A DNA stretch of 64,000 nt, from positions 1 through 64,000 of the forward strand of contig NZ_JACJKN010000009.1 of the NCBI RefSeq assembly GCF_016900775.1. Direction: 5' to 3'. Source of the DNA: Olsenella uli (lineage in GTDB: Bacteria > Actinomycetota > Coriobacteriia > Coriobacteriales > Atopobiaceae). Position numbers and translations under genes: made by a program. Below, piece after piece: positions 5,291 through 59,508 of this stretch. Each line of letters starts with the position of its first letter. Position 1 is the first letter of the stretch. Under the pieces are notes generated by a model. It ran no database searches. It worked only from the letters and a program-made list of their open reading frames with translations, and had not been told where the DNA came from.

Positions 5291-7051
5291 CTACCCCGCG
5301 AACTGCATGGCGTAGTAGCGCGCATAGGTGCCGCCGCGCGCGAGGAGCTCCTCGTGGGTCCCGCGCTCGGAGACACTGCCATTCTCCATGGTGACGATCT
5401 CGTCCGCGTTCTTGATGGTGGAGAGGCGGTGGGCAATCACCAGCGTGGTGCGTCCGCGCGCGAGCTCGGACAGGGACTCCTGAACGGCCTGCTCGGACTC
5501 GTTGTCCAGCGCGGACGTCGCCTCATCAAAGATAAGGATCGGCGGGTTCTTGAGGAAGACGCGGGCGATGGCGATGCGCTGCTTCTGACCGCCGGAGAGG
5601 TGGCTTCCGCGCTCGCCGACCTCGGTCTCGTAGCCGTCCGGCAGGCTCTCCACATACTCCGCGATGTTGGCCTTGCGCGCCGCGTCCTGAATCTCCTCGA
5701 GCGTGGCATCCGGGCTTCCGTAGGCAATGTTCTCCGCGATGGTGCCGTCAAACAGGTAGACATCCTGCTGGACAAGGCCAATGGACTCGCGCAGGCTCCG
5801 CTGCGTGACGTCGCGCACGTCCTGGCCGTCAATGGTGATGGAGCCGGAGTCCACGTCGTAGAAGCGCGGGAGCAGCGAGCACGTGGTGGACTTTCCGCCT
5901 CCGGAGGGGCCCACGAGCGCGATGGTCTCGCCGGGCGCGATGTCCAGATTGAGGTGGCGGATTACCACGTCATCCTTCTCGCCCTTTGCTCCGGGATAGG
6001 CGAAGCAGACGTCGTGATAGCTGACCGCGCCCTTGGTGACGCTCAGCTCCGGGGCGCCCGGCTTGTCCTGGATGTCCGGCTGGGTCTCAATCACCTCGTG
6101 GAATCGCTTGAACCCGGCAATGGCCTTCTGGAAGGTCTCCGTAAAGTCCAGGATGCTCGTGATGGGCGTGGTGAAGAGAGAGATGTAGAGCGCGTAGGTG
6201 GCGAGGTCGATGGCATGCATCTGCCCGTTGGCAATCAGCCAGCCGCCAAACACCACCACAGCCGTGTTGAGCGCGCCCATCATCACCGCAATTGCCGCCT
6301 GGTAGCGGCCCATGGCGCGATACATCCGGGTCTTGGAGTCCAGATAGGCGTTGTTGCTGCGACGGAACTTGTCACGCTCCACGTCCTCGGCGGCAAAGCT
6401 CTTGACCACGCGAACGCCGGCGAGGGAGTCCTCCAGGCGGCTGTTCACGCCGGAGATGCGAACGCGGTTCTCGGTATAGACGGCGCGCATCTGCCAGTTT
6501 GCGTACACGTTATAGACCACAAGCAGACACGCAATGAGCGCGAGCACGCCCGTGAGCGGCAGATTGATGGTGGAAAGGATCACAAACGAGCCCGCCACCT
6601 CCACGATGCCAATAAGGATGAACTCCGGCCCATGGTGAGCCGCCTCGGAGATGTCAAAGAGGTCAGAGACCAGGCGGCTCATAAGGTCGCCGGACTTGTG
6701 GTGGTCAAAATAGGAGAAACTCATACGCTCGTAGGCGTCGAAGAGGTCCTCGCGCATGCGGCTCTCCATGCGCGCGCCCATGACGTGACCCCAGAAGATG
6801 ACAAAGTAGCGGCAAACAAAGCGCAGGGCGTACATGCAGACAAGTCCCACAGCAAGATACGCGAGCGCGCCCATGATGGCATCTGAGCCCTCGGTAAAGA
6901 GCCCGCCCGTAAGGGTCCGCAGGATCTGCGGGAAGGCAAGATCGATGGCGGCAACGGTCACGGCGGCAATGATGTCGATGACAAACAGGTGCCGCTGCCC
7001 GCGATAGTACGAGAGGAACGATCGGAAGAGCGAGCGATGCTGAGCAGGCAT
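5291..7051 (-). CDS. ABC half-transporter (fused permease and ATPase)
   Basis: A 586-residue exporter-type protein that works as a homo- or heterodimer in the cytoplasmic membrane. The N-terminal ~320 residues hold about six transmembrane helices, ending near DFTETFQKAIAGFKRF. The ATPase has Walker A GPSGGGKST (about 381-389), the signature LSGGQ (about 485), Walker B ILIFDEATSALD (about 506-517) and the H-loop VIAHRLST (about 538). The start at 7051 follows AAGGAG by five bases, although the frame is open further upstream. The layout resembles MsbA/MdlB lipid or drug exporters. The substrate cannot be inferred, and no partner half-transporter is adjacent. Confidence 0.9.
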   Translation of the reverse strand: MPAQHRSLFRSFLSYYRGQRHLFVIDIIAAVTVAAIDLAFPQILRTLTGGLFTEGSDAIMGALAYLAVGLVCMYALRFVCRYFVIFWGHVMGARMESRMREDLFDAYERMSFSYFDHHKSGDLMSRLVSDLFDISEAAHHGPEFILIGIVEVAGSFVILSTINLPLTGVLALIACLLVVYNVYANWQMRAVYTENRVRISGVNSRLEDSLAGVRVVKSFAAEDVERDKFRRSNNAYLDSKTRMYRAMGRYQAAIAVMMGALNTAVVVFGGWLIANGQMHAIDLATYALYISLFTTPITSILDFTETFQKAIAGFKRFHEVIETQPDIQDKPGAPELSVTKGAVSYHDVCFAYPGAKGEKDDVVIRHLNLDIAPGETIALVGPSGGGKSTTCSLLPRFYDVDSGSITIDGQDVRDVTQRSLRESIGLVQQDVYLFDGTIAENIAYGSPDATLEEIQDAARKANIAEYVESLPDGYETEVGERGSHLSGGQKQRIAIARVFLKNPPILIFDEATSALDNESEQAVQESLSELARGRTTLVIAHRLSTIKNADEIVTMENGSVSERGTHEELLARGGTYARYYAMQFAG

Positions 7052-7304
7052 GAAACTCCTTGTGAATCGGCGAAAACGTGCGCAAACAAGGGTATCACCT
7101 CGGGCACGCCACCTCGCCGACCCAAAGAAAATGCCAGCAAAATGGGGACGCCCGCCTCTGAAGCGAGGACGGGCGCAGGGAGGGAAGATGTGATTTTCAC
7201 AATAGGCCATCGCACGCAGGTTCCGGTAACCAGGCAGTAAGGCATCGGTAAACCTGACGACCCGCCGCGATGGCCCACGAGCGTATGGAGATCTTCCCCC
7301 GGGG

Positions 7305-7310
7305 TATACT
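7305..7310 (+). promoter_or_regulatory. Candidate -10 box for the holin-like peptide gene
   Basis: TATACT lies about 65 bases before the ribosome site of the small peptide gene. No good -35 hexamer is visible. Confidence 0.3.
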
Positions 7311-7374
7311 CCCCACACGACTCGGCGGTCCGAACCGCGTACCGAGGGCAGCGCCGTACCCGAGAGGGGAGGTG

Positions 7375-7494
7375 ATGCCTATGGACGTCTCTGAGGTCGT
7401 TGTTCTTCTGACGAGTGTTCTTAACCTCGTTATCGCGATAGTAAGTCTCGTTCGAGAGGTGCGAAGGAGGTCCGATGAAAGGAACGGCCGCTAG
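7375..7494 (+). CDS. 39-residue holin-like membrane peptide, possible type I toxin
   Basis: The peptide MPMDVSEVVVLLTSVLNL... has one hydrophobic helix (about 8-26) and a strongly basic tail (REVRRRSDERNGR). GAGGGGAGG stands directly before ATG 7375, with ATG 7381 as a close alternative. Size, layout and tail resemble the putative holin-like toxins of Gram-positive type I toxin-antitoxin systems, whose mRNA is silenced by an antisense RNA over its 3' end. Its stop codon lies inside a stable hairpin (7486-7513), as expected for a short free-standing transcript. No antisense promoter was convincingly seen. The resemblance is by shape, not by a diagnostic motif. Confidence 0.5.
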   Translation: MPMDVSEVVVLLTSVLNLVIAIVSLVREVRRRSDERNGR

Positions 7495-7513
7495 CGCGTA
7501 AGCGCGAGCGGCC
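7486..7513 (+). terminator. Hairpin overlapping the holin-like gene stop
   Basis: GGCCGCTAGCGC pairs with GCGCGAGCGGCC across a four-base loop with one mismatch. The TAG stop is within the left arm. No T-run follows, so it may be an mRNA-stabilising end or an antisense target. Confidence 0.4.
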
Positions 7514-7850
7514 AACTACGAGTAACGGCACTGCCTAGGTTCCCCAACGTAGGCGGCCGTCGAGCCTATTGTACCCTCCCCCGGCGGTTTAGTCTCGCCG
7601 TTTTGACCCCTTTGGCAATTCCCGAGGACAAGCCCAGGGCATCCCCCGGATGGTCATAGGCCGGCCTGCGTCCCGCAAGTACGTGGCTCCGACTCGACAG
7701 AGTAACGACCCCGTAGAGCGACTGCCCAGCAGAGTGACTACTTTTGAACGGACGGCGACCCTTTGACGGCCCAGTTTGTTCAATACCTGTCACTCACGTA
7801 GCAGAAGGCGCACCCAGATGCTCTCTCCACTGCCCTGGCTGAGAATAGGC
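7514..7850. other. Intergenic stretch without a supported gene
   Basis: No frame here has a ribosome site plus a believable protein. It holds CCTAGG/CCTA-type short dyads near 7540, AAGTAACGACC-like repeats and, at its right end, the decayed family B palindrome (7732-7796). It could contain the antisense RNA of the holin-like gene, but nothing proves this. Confidence 0.4.
7732..7796. repeat. Family B palindrome, decayed copy
   Basis: The right end reads GTTCAATACCTGTCACTCA and the left end GAGTGACTACTTTTGAACGG. Both match the arms of the intact copy at 5171-5236 with several mismatches. Together the two copies bracket the ABC transporter and the holin-like gene. Confidence 0.6.
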
Positions 7851-8129
7851 TCACTCCTGTGCAACGAGCGGCGTGCCCATAGCTGCCAGGCGATAGGCGT
7901 TTGCAAGCTGGGCCCCGTTCTCGTCGTAGCAAGGCTCAGAGAGGAGCAGCCCATACGCACGCAGGCGCGAGATGGACTTGCTCACCGTCACCTTGCTGCG
8001 CCCCAGAATCGCAGCGAGCTCCTCCTTAGAGCATGCCTCGCCCTCGTGATCGAGCACGTACGCAAGGATGCTACGCTCCGTCGGCGTCAGCCGGCGCGGA
8101 GAGTAGATGATGACCGTGTTCCCAGACAT
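7851..8129 (-). CDS. Small winged-helix DNA-binding protein
   Basis: A 92-residue protein consisting of little more than a winged helix: LTPTERSILAYVLDHEG, then a helix-turn-helix SKEELAAILGRSKVTVSKSI and a wing region (RLRAYGLLLSEP). This is the MarR/LexA-like fold used for DNA binding, with no effector domain. It lies 26 bases after the last pilus gene on the same strand, so it is probably co-transcribed with the pilus operon and may regulate it (inference). Start MSGNTVIIYS at 8129 is preceded only by a weak CGAGG. A longer reading from 8210 would overlap the upstream gene. Confidence 0.7.
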   Translation of the reverse strand: MSGNTVIIYSPRRLTPTERSILAYVLDHEGEACSKEELAAILGRSKVTVSKSISRLRAYGLLLSEPCYDENGAQLANAYRLAAMGTPLVAQE

Positions 8130-8155
8130 CCTCGCGTCCCAGCAGCAATCCGCAG

Positions 8156-8800
8156 CTAGCGGCGCGCGCGACGAGCAAGCAGGGCAATGCCAACAAACAC
8201 CACGCCGCACACCGCAAACGCAACAATGGGCATCGCAGGCTCGCCCGTCTCGGGCGCACCCTCCTCCGTGGGCGGCGTCACGGGCTTCTTCTGCAGCTCG
8301 AGCTTGGGGCTCGCGTCAATCTCGTACACGTACGCGCCGTCCTCAGTCAGCGGCATGCCAATGAGGAAGGGGTCGATAGCATAGTACCCAGACGCCGGAT
8401 CATGCTGCACCATGACGTAAAGGCCCAGGGCAACGTCCGTGAACGTTGCCGTACCGTCGTCGCCAATCTCAACCGTGGTGCCGGCAATGTCGTGGGAGGC
8501 CACCCACGCCGCAAGCGCCTCGGCAGCGTCCGGAGACTGCAGGTCGTCAAGCGAGACACCGCTGTCGGCGCAGGCGTCGTTAAGCGCAAACAGGTAGTCG
8601 CCGTCATCAGAGACAACGTCGCCCACGCGATACAGTGTCACCGTGCCGCCCGGCACCTGCTGCCCGTCATACTTCATGCTGACGGAAATCGTCCCCGTAC
8701 GTGACGGATCGGGCACCTCATGCGCGTAGGCCACAACGCCCGTAAGGCTCAAAGCGAGCACCGTCATCACGAGTGCCGAGAGTCTCCTGAGCCACTTCAT
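8156..8800 (-). CDS. Small cell-wall-anchored pilin-like protein
   Basis: A 214-residue surface protein, last structural gene of the pilus operon. The signal peptide is residues 1-26 (MKWLRRLSALVMTVLAL... cut near AYA-HE). The middle is a beta-rich pilin or collagen-binding-like domain (GTISVSMKYDGQQVPGGTVTLYRVGD) of the kind found in basal and minor pilins. The C-terminus has a sorting signal: a Pro/Glu-rich spacer, GAPETGEP, a hydrophobic helix and RRARR. The sortase box thus reads APETG instead of LPxTG. It probably acts as the pilus base or accessory subunit, processed by the sortase encoded upstream or by a housekeeping sortase. Confidence 0.75.
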   Translation of the reverse strand: MKWLRRLSALVMTVLALSLTGVVAYAHEVPDPSRTGTISVSMKYDGQQVPGGTVTLYRVGDVVSDDGDYLFALNDACADSGVSLDDLQSPDAAEALAAWVASHDIAGTTVEIGDDGTATFTDVALGLYVMVQHDPASGYYAIDPFLIGMPLTEDGAYVYEIDASPKLELQKKPVTPPTEEGAPETGEPAMPIVAFAVCGVVFVGIALLARRARR

Positions 8801-54494: not shown

Positions 54495-55439
54495 TCAGGC
54501 GTCAGCGCTGCGCCCGGCGGACAGGAGCGCGCGGGCGTAGTCCGCGGCAAGGCGCGTCACCTCCGCGTCCGTGGTGCGCGCGGCGCCCCCGCAGGCGGCG
54601 ATCATGCGGGGGAGCCACATGCCGCCGTAGTACTCCGTCCGCGCGATGACGGAGCCGTCCTCGCCGACGCGCGCCACCCGCAGGTCGTGCCAGGGGAGCA
54701 GGTCAAGGTAGCGCCGGTCGGAGAAGGTGATCTCGACGGCGCGAGACGTTTGCCTCCCGGGCGCGGCGTTGCCCGCCGCGGCGCGCCCGCCAACGAGCAC
54801 GTCCTCCATCCGGTCGAGCCGGAAGGTCCGCTCGCCGCATCGCTCGAGGTCATATGCGTCGAGGTACCAGACGTCGCCCTCGCACCTCAGCCCCCGCGGC
54901 ACGCAGGACCGCGCCTGCGCCGCCTCGTCCGCCGCGCCCCGGTACGAGAAGGAGAGCTCCCGCCGCTTGAGGAGGGAGCGGGCGCAGGCGGATATCGTCT
55001 CAGAGCAGGCGCCCGCGCCTGCGGCGACGACGCGGCGGACCACGTCCTCGCTCACGGGCTCGGCCGCGAGCGCCCCCTCGAGCCGCGCCCGCAGTGGGTC
55101 GTCCGCGCCCACGCCCAGGCGCTCGAGCGCGGCCGCTAGCGCGACGGTCTCCGTGCGGGTGAGGCGCAGGCGCCGGCCGCGCACCCCTCCCGAGAAGGCG
55201 AGCGTGGCCTCGCCGTCCCGGGAGGGGGTGAGGGGAAGGCCGACCCCGCCCGCAGAGGACGACGTCTCCACGAGCCCGATGAGCTTCTCGGCGCGCTCGG
55301 CCGTCGTTCCCAGCCGCGCGGCCACCGCCTCTGCCGAGAGCGCGTCCCCCGCCTCGGAGAGGCTCGAGACGAGGGCCACGAGCTCGCGCGCCTCGGCGAC
55401 GGCGCCCGTTCTGCCGGCCCGCGACTCCCTACGAGGCAT
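54495..55439 (-). CDS. WYL-domain transcriptional regulator (PafC-like)
   Basis: 314 residues with an N-terminal winged helix (LVALVSSLSEAGDALSAEAVAARLGTTAERAEKLIGLVE) and a WYL domain, in which the W-Y-L triad region reads VWYLDAYDLERCGERTFRLDRM. A C-terminal extension follows (SDRRYLDLLPWHDLRV). PafB/PafC pairs respond to single-stranded DNA and control the DNA-damage response in mycobacteria. The start MPRRESRAGRTG overlaps the upstream partner's stop by 11 bases. Convergent with the exonuclease-helicase gene. Confidence 0.82.
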   Translation of the reverse strand: MPRRESRAGRTGAVAEARELVALVSSLSEAGDALSAEAVAARLGTTAERAEKLIGLVETSSSAGGVGLPLTPSRDGEATLAFSGGVRGRRLRLTRTETVALAAALERLGVGADDPLRARLEGALAAEPVSEDVVRRVVAAGAGACSETISACARSLLKRRELSFSYRGAADEAAQARSCVPRGLRCEGDVWYLDAYDLERCGERTFRLDRMEDVLVGGRAAAGNAAPGRQTSRAVEITFSDRRYLDLLPWHDLRVARVGEDGSVIARTEYYGGMWLPRMIAACGGAARTTDAEVTRLAADYARALLSAGRSADA

Positions 55440-56394
55440 CCTCGAGCACCCCCTCGAGCACGGAGCGCCAGGCACCGACGAGCTCGGGCGGGCCAATCGG
55501 CACGACGCCCTCCGCCGCGGCCCAGCTGGCCGCGTCCGCGGCGGAGCTCATCTCAACCTCCCAGACGGTCTCACCGCCGCGCGAGAAGAACCTCCCGCAG
55601 CCGCCTGCCGCCTGCCGCACGTCCTTCTCGCGCTCCGGCGGGACCGCGAAGGTCGCGGTGCCAACGGGCGCGCCCATCTGGAAGGGGAGCCTCTTCCAGT
55701 CGGCCACGGAGAAGTCCTCCGGCACGCGGGCGGGCACGTCCGGAAGGACGCCCGCCCGCACGACCCGGTCTACGCGGTAGGTCCTCGTGCCGCCCTCGAT
55801 GGGGGTTCCCTCCTCGGACAGGCGGCCGGCCACGAGGTAGAGTCCCCCGTGCAGGCCGAAGAACCCGTACGGGGCGATGACGCGCTCGGACTCAGTCCCG
55901 CGGGCGTCGCGGTAGGAGATCTGCGCCGCGCAGCCCCCGGTGAGCGCCTCCCTGAGCACGGCCAGGGGGCGGCCGTCGTCCCGGGCGCCGGCCAGGGCGG
56001 GCGCGGCCTCGGCGAAGGCGCGCGTCAGCTTGGCGAGCGAGAAGCGCAGCTCCTCGGCGAGCGGGAACGCGGGGTCCTCAATGAGGGGCTGACACGCGAG
56101 CTCGAGCACCGCGGCGTCCGCGGGGCCGATCTCGGCGCCCTCCGGGTAGGAGGAGGCCTCGTCGACCGCCCATGAGGACTCGCTCCCGGCGTCCGAGCAC
56201 TCGCGGACGACGACCCCGCACGCGGCGAGGACCATGCGGTCTCGGGAGAACGCCCGACGGAAGCTATCTGCGGAAAGGCCGGGATAGAAGTCGCGTGCGA
56301 CGCCCGATGAGGGGATGGGCGTGCCCGCGTTCATGAAGGCGAGCGCGAGCGAGCAGACCCGCCTCGCCCGCTCGTCGTCCTTCGTGATCCTCAT
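55429..56394 (-). CDS. WYL-domain transcriptional regulator (PafB-like)
   Basis: 321 residues, partner of the next gene. It has an N-terminal helical DNA-binding region (RVCSLALAFMNAGTPIPSSGVARDFYPGLSADSFRRAFSRD), a WYL domain (PYGFFGLHGGLYLVAGRL, in which the canonical W-Y-L is partly replaced by GLYLVAG, then RTYRVDRV) and a C-terminal domain (EEMSSAADAASW-like). ATG 56394 has GGGGTG upstream; GTG 56403 is possible. It forms a two-gene operon by overlap with the PafC-like gene. Confidence 0.8.
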   Translation of the reverse strand: MRITKDDERARRVCSLALAFMNAGTPIPSSGVARDFYPGLSADSFRRAFSRDRMVLAACGVVVRECSDAGSESSWAVDEASSYPEGAEIGPADAAVLELACQPLIEDPAFPLAEELRFSLAKLTRAFAEAAPALAGARDDGRPLAVLREALTGGCAAQISYRDARGTESERVIAPYGFFGLHGGLYLVAGRLSEEGTPIEGGTRTYRVDRVVRAGVLPDVPARVPEDFSVADWKRLPFQMGAPVGTATFAVPPEREKDVRQAAGGCGRFFSRGGETVWEVEMSSAADAASWAAAEGVVPIGPPELVGAWRSVLEGVLEDAS

Positions 56395-56555
56395 GCCACA
56401 CACCCCTCATCCCGCTTCCGCTTGCCGAGCGGGCCCGCGCATCGCCCGGCGTATCTGCGTCTTTTTAACGAACGAAAAGCATAAGACGTATACTGTCTAG
56501 ATTGTATGCACCCGGATGAGCACGTCTTTCGAGACTCTTCAAAAGGACGCCCAGT

Positions 56556-59111
56556 ATGGCTATGACTCACGACTACTTGGATTACCTCAACCAGAGGGTC
56601 GGAATCGCCCCCGCGAACAGCCAGGAGGAGCTTCAGGCAGCCGAGACCATCGCGAGCCTCATGGGCCAGCATGACGTCGAGCCCGCCATCGAGGAGTTCG
56701 ACGCGCCCTCCGTCTCCGGGCTGGCGCCGGCGATCATCTCCATCGTGATGTTCCTCGGCATCCTCGTCTCCGGCTTTGGCATGGTGGCTCTCGCCCTCGT
56801 CGGGTTTGTCCTCGCCGCCGTCCCCGCCGCGCTCGCGCTGCTGAGGGCCTTCGGCAGGGAGCCCTCTCTCGCCCTCGGGCCGAGCGCGCGGAGCCAGAAC
56901 GTCGTCGCGGTGCACCGCGCCTCGGGCCCGCTCGTGGTCAAGGGCAGCCGCCCCATCGTGGTCGTGGCCCACTATGACACCCCCCACGAGAACTTCCTCT
57001 ATTCCTCTCCCATTGCGCCCTACCTCCCGCTCATCTCGCGCGCGGTCGCGCCGTGCTCGTATGCCGTCGCCCTCTGCGCGTTCATCCAGCTCCTCGGCTT
57101 CATTCCCGCGCCCGCCCGCATCGTGCTCTGGGTCGTGGGCATCCTTGCGTCCCTGCCCGCCGTCCTGCTCGCCGTCGGCGCGATCTACGAGCGCGTGTCC
57201 CCGTGCACCCTCGGCGCGAACGACAACAAGGCCGCCGTCGCGTCGCTTCTGGGCGTGATGGAGAACGTGAGCCCGAGCGGGCTCGTCCCCACGCCGCGCC
57301 CCGTCGTCGCGCCCGAGCCCGAGCCCGCCGAGGAGCCCGAGCTCGCCCCTGAGCCCATGGAGGCCACCGAGGAGGTTGCGCCCGCGGTCGAGCCGGACGT
57401 CGCTCCCACTGCCGCTCCGGAGGAGGAGCCCGCCGAGGCCGCGTCCTTTGTTCCCGAGCCCGCGCCCGAGCCGGCGGCTCCCGCCCCGGCCCCTGCCGCC
57501 GAGAAGGTCGTCGGCGTCCGCCACGGAGCCGAGGTTCTGCGCGAGCTCGACATCCTGCCTGAGGGGTGCGAGATAGAGTACGACCTCCCTGCCGCCCCGG
57601 CTCCTGCGCCCGCCCCGGCGCGTCCCACCACCTCGGCCCGCGCCGCCCAGGCGCCCGCGTCGCTGCCCATCGACGTGCCCGCCGCCGTTCCCGCGCCCGC
57701 TCCGGCCATGGTCCCCGAGCCCGTGGAGGGCTACGAGGACTCGCCGAGCCCGATCGAGACCATCCGCACCTTCGCCGAGGGCCTTGTCGAGCGCGTCTCG
57801 TCCCTCGTGCGCTCCATCATCCCCTCGAGGGATGCCACGGCCGAGGAGGCCGCGGAGCCCTCTCCCGAAGAGCGCGTTTCCGCCGAGGAGCCCCAGCCCG
57901 CGGAGCCCACCCCTGCGCCCGCTCCGCAGCAGGCCGAGCCGACCGCGGAGCAGCATGACGAGCCTGCCGAGAGCGTCGAGGCGACGGCCTCCTTCGCCCC
58001 GACCTCCGACGACCAGACCACGCGCGACGAGCTCCTCTCCACGGGCCGCTTCTCGCTCGTGATGGACGACGAGACGAGCCACGGCGTTGGGCCGAAGGAC
58101 CCCTCCGGCCTCACCGAGATGGGCGACACCGCGGTCGACCTCGACGCAACCCAGCCCACGGCGCCCGTGGCCGCGCCGCGCCCCGCGGCCCCGGAGGACC
58201 CGGAGTGGGGCAAGGCGAGCTACCGCCCCCAGGTCTCCAGTGTTGCCAAGAGGGCCACACTCTTCGACCTCCCCGATCCCACCGTGAGCTCCGTCGACCC
58301 GCTGGGGAGCACGGGCAAGGCCCGCCCCGTCGAGGCGCCCCGCAAGGCCGAGGCGTCCCGAGGCCCGGCGTCCCTTCCCGTCATCACCGCCGCGGACCTT
58401 CAGGATGCGGAGGCCCCCGCGCAGGAGGCTGCCCCGGACGCCCCCAGGGAGCGCCTCTCCGGCCTTCTTGACCGTGCCAAGGGCGCGTTCTCCCGTCTGA
58501 AGACGCAGGGCGACGCCGCCGACGCGCCGGCGGCCGGCGAGGACGACGACCCGATGTGGCGCGGCGGCGCAGCTCCGCGCGGCGGGCTCAGGCTCGTCGA
58601 GGACGACGTCCAGGCCCCGACCGAAGATGAGCTCCGCGATGCCGTCCTCTCCCTGGGCGACGACGAGCTCAACGCCCACGACATCTGGTTCGTCGCGCTC
58701 GGCGCGTCTTCGCTCGACCACGCCGGCATGAGGTCGTTCCTGAGGCAGCACCGCCACGATGTCCGCGGTGCCTTCGTTGTCAACCTCGACTGCGTCGGCG
58801 CGGGCGAGCTCAGCATCCTCACGCGCGAGGGCGTCGACGTCCCCCGCCGCTCGGACCGCCGCCTCGGTCGCCTTCTCTCCAACGCCGCCCGCGACCTCCA
58901 CGTGGAGATGGGGCAGGCCCGCTACGACTGGACCTCGACGGATGCCCACCCCGCCATGCGCTCCTCCATGCGCGCGGCCACCATCATGGGCATCGGCGAG
59001 AACGGCCTTCCGGCCCTCTCCCGCACGCTTGACGACGTGGCTGACAACGTCAGCGGGGACCAGGCCCACGCGGTCGCCGAGATCGTCACCGAGATGATTC
59101 GCCGCTCCTAG
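56556..59111 (+). CDS. M28 peptidase-like membrane protein, catalytic Glu pair missing
   Basis: 851 residues. The N-terminal part looks like the start of a zinc M28 aminopeptidase (VVVVAHYDTPHEN with the first His and Asp; GANDNKAAVASLLGVMENV with the bridging Asp), but four hydrophobic segments are placed around it (about 52-100 and 165-215). A Pro/Ala/Glu-rich insert of about 450 residues follows. The C-terminal part resumes the peptidase: DIWFVALGASSLDHAGMRSFL, NLDCVGAG and TDAHPAMRSS. The expected EE of GAEELG is SS, removing the general base and one zinc ligand. Thus it is probably a non-enzymatic or altered membrane protein. Confidence 0.72.
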   Translation: MAMTHDYLDYLNQRVGIAPANSQEELQAAETIASLMGQHDVEPAIEEFDAPSVSGLAPAIISIVMFLGILVSGFGMVALALVGFVLAAVPAALALLRAFGREPSLALGPSARSQNVVAVHRASGPLVVKGSRPIVVVAHYDTPHENFLYSSPIAPYLPLISRAVAPCSYAVALCAFIQLLGFIPAPARIVLWVVGILASLPAVLLAVGAIYERVSPCTLGANDNKAAVASLLGVMENVSPSGLVPTPRPVVAPEPEPAEEPELAPEPMEATEEVAPAVEPDVAPTAAPEEEPAEAASFVPEPAPEPAAPAPAPAAEKVVGVRHGAEVLRELDILPEGCEIEYDLPAAPAPAPAPARPTTSARAAQAPASLPIDVPAAVPAPAPAMVPEPVEGYEDSPSPIETIRTFAEGLVERVSSLVRSIIPSRDATAEEAAEPSPEERVSAEEPQPAEPTPAPAPQQAEPTAEQHDEPAESVEATASFAPTSDDQTTRDELLSTGRFSLVMDDETSHGVGPKDPSGLTEMGDTAVDLDATQPTAPVAAPRPAAPEDPEWGKASYRPQVSSVAKRATLFDLPDPTVSSVDPLGSTGKARPVEAPRKAEASRGPASLPVITAADLQDAEAPAQEAAPDAPRERLSGLLDRAKGAFSRLKTQGDAADAPAAGEDDDPMWRGGAAPRGGLRLVEDDVQAPTEDELRDAVLSLGDDELNAHDIWFVALGASSLDHAGMRSFLRQHRHDVRGAFVVNLDCVGAGELSILTREGVDVPRRSDRRLGRLLSNAARDLHVEMGQARYDWTSTDAHPAMRSSMRAATIMGIGENGLPALSRTLDDVADNVSGDQAHAVAEIVTEMIRRS

Positions 59112-59147: not shown

Positions 59148-59176
59148 GCCGCCGTCGCAGCTCATGCGACGGCGGC
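59148..59176 (+). terminator. Terminator of the M28-like gene
   Basis: GCCGCCGTCGCA (59148-59159) pairs with TGCGACGGCGGC (59165-59176) over a GCTCA loop. It is followed by GCGTCTTTG. Confidence 0.65.
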
Positions 59177-59508
59177 GCGTCTTTGGAGCTGGGCGCGCCC
59201 CGCATGGCCGACCGCAAGGGGGCTCCCGCCGAGCAGGCGGTCCCCGCCCGCGAGCGATGCCACCGGACCGGCGCGCACCCTTCTCTGGCATGCCGCCATC
59301 GTTCTTCTCGCCACGTTCGTGCCTTGCGTCCCTCTTGCCCTCATAGGCCCTCCCTTCCGCGTGGCGCATACGATACGAGCGGGCGCTTCCCGCCTCGTGA
59401 CGCCAAGATGACAGCCCGCTGCCGCAACGCCGACGCTCCGTGCGAGAAGGCCGGAGCCCCCGCAGCTCATGGGCCACGCCTGCTATGAAGATGAATGCCT
59501 ATGAGAAA
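59177..59508. other. Intergenic region without a supported gene
   Basis: Open frames exist on both strands but lack ribosome sites and protein-like composition. No tRNA, repeat or strong promoter was recognised here. Confidence 0.5.

Follow-up and report, generated by a model that had tools for sequence, protein, structure and literature searches.

A membrane-anchored M28-fold protein of Olsenella uli and its relatives that is probably a platform rather than a peptidase

The 64,000-nucleotide stretch of Olsenella uli DNA analysed here (the window) contains a gene for an 851-residue membrane protein, which we interpret, with a probability of about two in three, as a membrane-anchored pseudo-M28 protein that serves as a platform for binding or assembly rather than as an enzyme. 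The first-pass annotation had suggested a pseudo-enzyme with a binding or scaffolding role at the membrane, and this is now the best-supported reading because none of 98 sites is intact, no replacement Glu was seen, the fold is kept, the core is under selection and the protein is near-universal. The features of the locus are listed in Table 1.

Table 1. Features of the M28-like gene, its product and the adjacent genes (window coordinates).
Feature	Coordinates	Strand	Basis
Whole gene: 851-aa membrane protein with a split pseudo-M28 domain	56556..59111	+	Open frame, Pfam M28, homologues
M28 first half-domain (residues 1-240), containing both membrane hairpins	56556..57275	+	AlphaFold model, profile, structural match
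Membrane hairpin 1 (residues 56-98; two helices, 4-residue turn)	56721..56849	+	Model, family-wide hydropathy
H139-Y140-D141: M28 metal-ligand His and its Asp, retained	56970..56978	+	Sequence comparison
Membrane hairpin 2 (residues 154-214)	57015..57197	+	Model, hydropathy
D223: bridging-metal Asp position (NDN), retained; D in 77/98 of the order	57222..57224	+	Sequence comparison
Disordered Pro/Ala/Glu-rich insert (~residues 241-688)	57276..58619	+	pLDDT mostly <50, insert lengths, composition
Insert motif 1, GVRHGAEVLRELDILPEGCEIEY (residues 320-342)	57513..57581	+	Counterparts recognisable in many class members
Insert motif 2, VAKRATLFDLPDPTVSSVD (residues 563-581); L569, D571, P573-P575 and D581 invariant in 50 sequences	58242..58298	+	
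Insert motif 3, WRGGA (residues 668-672), remnant of a class-wide motif	58557..58571	+	
M28 second half-domain (residues 689-851)	58620..59108	+	Pfam, profile, model
S718-S719: in place of general-base Glu and ligand Glu; S718 position is Ser in 94/98	58707..58712	+	Sequence comparison
D745: metal-ligand Asp position (NLD), retained	58788..58790	+	Sequence comparison
H798 (TDAHPAM): His cited in the first-pass annotation, off the M28 ligand position	58947..58949	+	Sequence comparison
R823 (PALSRTLDD): position of the last M28 ligand His, His lost	59022..59024	+	Sequence comparison
Divergent neighbour: WYL-domain regulator	55429..56403	-	Pfam WYL; synteny in the majority of Atopobiaceae loci
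Further divergent neighbour, forming a pair with the WYL gene; WYL-like as judged from synteny	54495..55496	-	No NCBIfam match

A split M28 domain with two membrane hairpins

Pfam Peptidase_M28 (PF04389) matches only the C-terminal part of the protein, residues 707-846, with 23.3 bits against a curated cut-off of 21.3, and 21 of 23 homologues match the same family. It was the only Pfam family matched by the 851-residue protein, with no match to DUF4910; no NCBIfam family matched, and a PDB sequence search with the single protein as query gave no match. Profiles of the half-domains built from relatives did match Bacillus subtilis YwaD/BSAP and an Aneurinibacillus aminopeptidase in the PDB, and these alignments placed HYD, NDN, the Glu-Glu site, NLD and the last His all in order. 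An AlphaFold model built from 50 sequences has a confident core (pLDDT mostly above 85-90, with 272 residues at 90 or higher) that forms the M28 alpha/beta fold in two halves. The insert, which begins after the helix following NDN, lies between them, in agreement with the earlier proposal that about 450 residues split the domain. As that proposal recommended, the model was compared with M28 structures: with the halves joined, VIA-align superposed them as one M28 domain at Z scores of 27-30 (30.3 for glutaminyl cyclase 7d1e over 263 residues at 2.6 Å, 28.1 for B. subtilis BSAP 6hc6 and 27.6 for the Vibrio aminopeptidase 1amp), and a plain Foldseek search was concordant.

The hydrophobic segments had been described as flanking the insert. 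Both are instead helical hairpins in loops of the first half-domain, so that all four membrane helices (56-72/77-98 and 154-179/185-214, with turns of 4-5 residues) are N-terminal of the insert. The membrane loop on the domain side is rich in Lys and Arg (family mean 7.2 K+R versus 3.4 D+E), the turns are nearly uncharged, and no signal peptide is apparent at the N-terminus. These features favour a cytoplasmic M28 domain, although the charge argument is weak, the stretch immediately N-terminal of hairpin 1 being acidic. Most known M28 enzymes are extracytoplasmic, and the helical domain of the candidate partners described below is predicted to lie outside; together with the acidic segment, this would suit an M28 domain that faces outwards as a receptor for peptides or cell-wall stems, like a solute-binding domain. 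We consider such a receptor rather unlikely, given the N-terminus without an apparent signal peptide, the concentration of K+R in the domain-side loop and the resemblance of the insert to cytoplasmic disorder.

Loss of the peptidase site in a conserved protein

Alignments confirmed that Ser718-Ser719 occupy the positions of the general-base Glu and the adjacent ligand Glu. The accompanying claim that the metal-binding His and Asp residues are kept holds for H139, D141, D223 and D745 but not for the later His: H798 is variable among close relatives (T, W, L or other), and the true position is that of R823, which aligns with the ligand His of YwaD and of intact homologues (NWHWxTDT). The protein thus has no general-base Glu, and of the five M28 ligands (H, D, E, D, H) it has H139, D223 and D745, with Ser719 in place of the Glu and Arg823 in place of the His. 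Judged by the Vibrio enzyme, we take this to mean that the base and one metal's own ligands are lost and that the three ligands of the other metal site remain. Since the H139/D223/D745 site is complete in the window protein, it could allow residual or different activity.

We then compared homologues across the order, as the first-pass annotation had advised. Among 98 Coriobacteriales sequences the base position is Ser in 94, Gly in 2, His in 1 and Glu in 1, Glu being absent from 97; the lone Glu (locus L050) sits in a GSELTQ motif, and the other ligands of that protein are broken. The ligand Glu is kept in 30 of the 98, the Asp at D745 in 57 and the last His in 48, and not one sequence has an intact M28 site. 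Nine keep all five ligands and lack the base alone, as would be expected of ordinary M28 aminopeptidases that use another acidic residue as general base. This explanation is very unlikely for the window protein, which also lacks the Glu and His ligands. Moreover, no newly conserved Glu or Asp occurs near the site in Coriobacteriales, the only newly conserved Glu residues of the core being E24 and E846, and a conserved Glu pair nearby that could replace the lost one was not seen at the sequence level.

An enzyme of changed chemistry, perhaps a different hydrolase, with one metal at H139/D223/D745 and Ser718 as a new functional residue, would account for the prevalence of Ser at that position and for the near-invariance of H139 and D141. 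It also has a parallel in CA_C2195, a bacterial M28-like protein that bound one Zn without the M28 active residues (PMC4000134). However, D223 is replaced by N, C, A, S or Y in 21 of the 98 sequences and D745 is replaced in 41, which counts against this reading because a shared chemistry would need those ligands; we regard it as unlikely.

The family is found in 187 of 197 Coriobacteriia genomes and in 168 of the 170 good ones, with a single match in nearly every genome, and the protein is present in 59 of 60 relatives from ten families of the order (homologues were assigned to class and order from named loci plus kinship ranks). A search for other M28 proteins in the window's genome found none, the single match being an M20-like peptidase frame. 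Conservation across the order extends to the substitution, the position of the insert and the hairpins, so these features are not due to chance. Pairwise comparisons gave dN/dS values of 0.07-0.32 for the core and 0.20-0.53 for the insert (ranges from valid pairs, excluding the L059 pair, which was aligned out of frame), and the folded core is under purifying selection. Residues conserved both in the intact class members and in Coriobacteriales include SQN 113-115, AHYD 138-141, G220, N224, WFVAxG 711-716, N743, G748, G750, E758-G759, R769 and D827. A decaying pseudogene or a sequencing artefact, including the error at the Ser-Ser site that the first reading had allowed for, is refuted by the open frame of 851 codons, dN/dS well below 1, conservation among the 98 homologues and the recurrence of the substitutions across dozens of independent assemblies. 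An apparent frameshift was seen in Thermophilibacter provencensis Marseille-P2912T (locus L099, ~6001-8527), where it falls within the low-complexity insert; it is the one observation in favour of this reading, whose probability is close to nil.

In 23 sequences from other orders of Coriobacteriia the insert is shorter (114-297 residues) and the site is fully intact in 15; in the remaining ones the base position is K, H, F or Y. Relatives outside the class have cores of ~370-420 residues with the same two hairpins and no insert, and 7 of 15 are intact, several of the sites being broken. The co-occurrence of insert and intact site in other orders indicates that the insert preceded the catalytic loss. 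In a tree built without the site columns, Coriobacteriales form one clade (100*), and the base-Glu state changes about 5 times, a number best taken as "several", given that the tree is a quick one and includes some long branches. Catalysis was therefore apparently lost several times while the protein was retained. In addition, insert-free relatives from other Actinomycetota classes (L179, L182, L183, L185, L186 and L187) have broken M28 sites too, with N, G, S or A at key positions, so that pseudoenzymes arise repeatedly among these membrane M28 proteins.

Insert motifs, a candidate partner and the proposed platform

The insert varies in length from 224 to more than 1,100 residues within Coriobacteriales, yet short motifs recur in it. 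Motif 1 has the consensus VRHGxEVLRxLGILPExCEIEY and is recognisable in members of other orders that have an intact site, as in PVRRSAEDAHQAGVVPQGAELRYSP; motif 2 reads ARRASLFDLPDPS..DP; and motif 3 has the class-wide form WLGVDxxFDxRxxGxxIGSWDNF...WKGGA, of which the window protein keeps WRGGA alone. Such a pattern suits putative binding sites on a flexible arm.

In other families of the class, a second family of membrane proteins (alignment A5, ~310-530 residues) is encoded upstream of the M28-like gene. Its members have a variable disordered start, one membrane helix and then a helical domain, according to a model of moderate confidence made from two sequences. The A5 family gave no convincing Pfam or PDB-sequence match and no significant Foldseek match. 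It is upstream and co-directional in 56 of the 61 genomes in which both genes were placed, at 22-212 bp (adjacent) in 30 and at 0.6-10 kb in 26; it adjoins the M28-like gene in Atopobium minutum and A. fossor (L156, L159). The family is class-wide (L216, L218 and others, also L224 and L223), and in L216 and L218 it is separated from the M28-like gene by a gene with an Hcp-like start (FCNQCEQT). The linkage spans members with intact and with broken sites, which argues that the pair functions together regardless of catalysis. In the window's genus A5 was not found, profile matches there being weak and of low complexity, so the partner is not needed there; the gene may have been lost from the genus or have diverged past recognition.

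Other neighbours were considered and rejected as clues to function. Of the 73 named loci with full-length copies, all except two have a WYL-like gene on the opposite strand upstream, but the WYL pair and dinG, although syntenic in Atopobiaceae, are divergent or distant and were not seen nearby in other orders. Genes for Cna-B-type surface proteins and sortases downstream are convergent and occur in part of the loci only; sortase-like genes immediately follow the M28-like gene, convergently, in L122, L134, L169 and L171. A riboswitch as the source of a conserved downstream segment was dismissed after no Rfam match was obtained. At 59165-59344 (minus strand) the window has a 60-residue ORF with the motif SxLxGGDxLxGGxPxxxGHAGR, found at the same place in L095, L103, L107 and L112. 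In 19 of 42 clustered proteins, the GHAGR motif forms the N-terminal segment just before the signal peptide of large downstream Cna-B-type surface proteins. It could act as a sorting motif associated with the signal peptide, of which the window would keep a remnant or a free small protein. Weak blastx matches in the window's genus probably reflect this short ORF or antisense frames.

For the M28-like protein, we propose a folded domain that would be unable to run the M28 reaction, with Ser718 for the base Glu, Ser719 for the ligand Glu and Arg823 for the ligand His. Because the hairpins and the insert emerge from loops of the domain, the fold would be seated on the membrane and carry a long disordered, motif-bearing arm, and its cleft and the arm motifs may hold partners there. 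The one-pass A5 protein, with its predicted external helical domain, would be the obvious candidate partner in most of the class. Class members with an intact site already have both the insert and the gene linkage, so the platform role is probably older than the peptidase role and probably outlasts it. More tentatively, Coriobacteriia may have a class-specific and nearly universal two-component membrane complex of a split M28-fold scaffold and a one-pass helical protein, in which the scaffold would be ancestral, the peptidase an accessory that was repeatedly lost, and the window's genus a member without the partner.

Relation to other M28-fold proteins

M28-fold pseudo-peptidases are best known from eukaryotes, in the transferrin receptor, nicastrin and nicalin. 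The transferrin receptor is a type II one-pass protein with large extra domains, and its ectodomain, a non-catalytic M28 fold used for protein binding, gave a VIA-align Z of about 24.5. With the M28 aminopeptidases (Vibrio 1amp, B. subtilis YwaD/BSAP 6hc6 and Streptomyces griseus 1cp7) the window protein shares the fold over both halves and the HYD, NDN and NLD positions. In contrast to them, it lacks the base Glu, the ligand Glu and the ligand His and has two intradomain hairpins and an insert. Other Actinomycetota have membrane M28 proteins that lack the insert (L178, L180, L181 and L184) and share the two-hairpin architecture and core length, but with an intact site; their neighbours in two loci examined are alpha/beta hydrolases.

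Nicalin and nicastrin would resemble the window protein as non-catalytic M28-fold membrane proteins that act in a complex. Nicalin belongs to the ER multipass translocon with TMEM147 and NOMO and adds a single membrane helix to the seven that TMEM147 provides, the eight having been assigned together (PMC7505659). Instead of a single helix, the window protein has four, in two hairpins inside the domain, and its candidate partner is a one-pass helical protein. The eukaryotic proteins pair with seven-helix partners, TMEM147 or APH1. A bacterial M28-like protein without the active residues is also already described: CA_C2195 of Clostridium acetobutylicum (DUF4910) has three domains, with a folded alpha+beta insert and a C-terminal wHTH (PMC4000134). 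Insert and tail differ here. In CA_C2195 a Ser replaces the Asp of the active pair rather than the Glu, and membrane hairpins are absent; the window protein, for its part, matched neither the DUF4910 profile nor a wHTH domain in the Pfam scan. We found no literature on an M28 pseudoenzyme in Coriobacteria among open-access papers, which is weak evidence of absence.

The window protein would thus represent a bacterial M28-fold pseudo-peptidase carried in one copy by nearly all members of a whole class, while sister orders still have relatives with an intact site. Together, the homologues form a natural series, from no insert with an intact site, through an insert with an intact site and an insert with the base lost, to an insert with ligands lost, which allows the successive changes to be placed in order. 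The match to Peptidase_M28 above the cut-off is probably a database trap, "peptidase" being the wrong label in Coriobacteriales. Moreover, the linked candidate partner gene makes an anonymous core gene of gut bacteria a directly testable complex.
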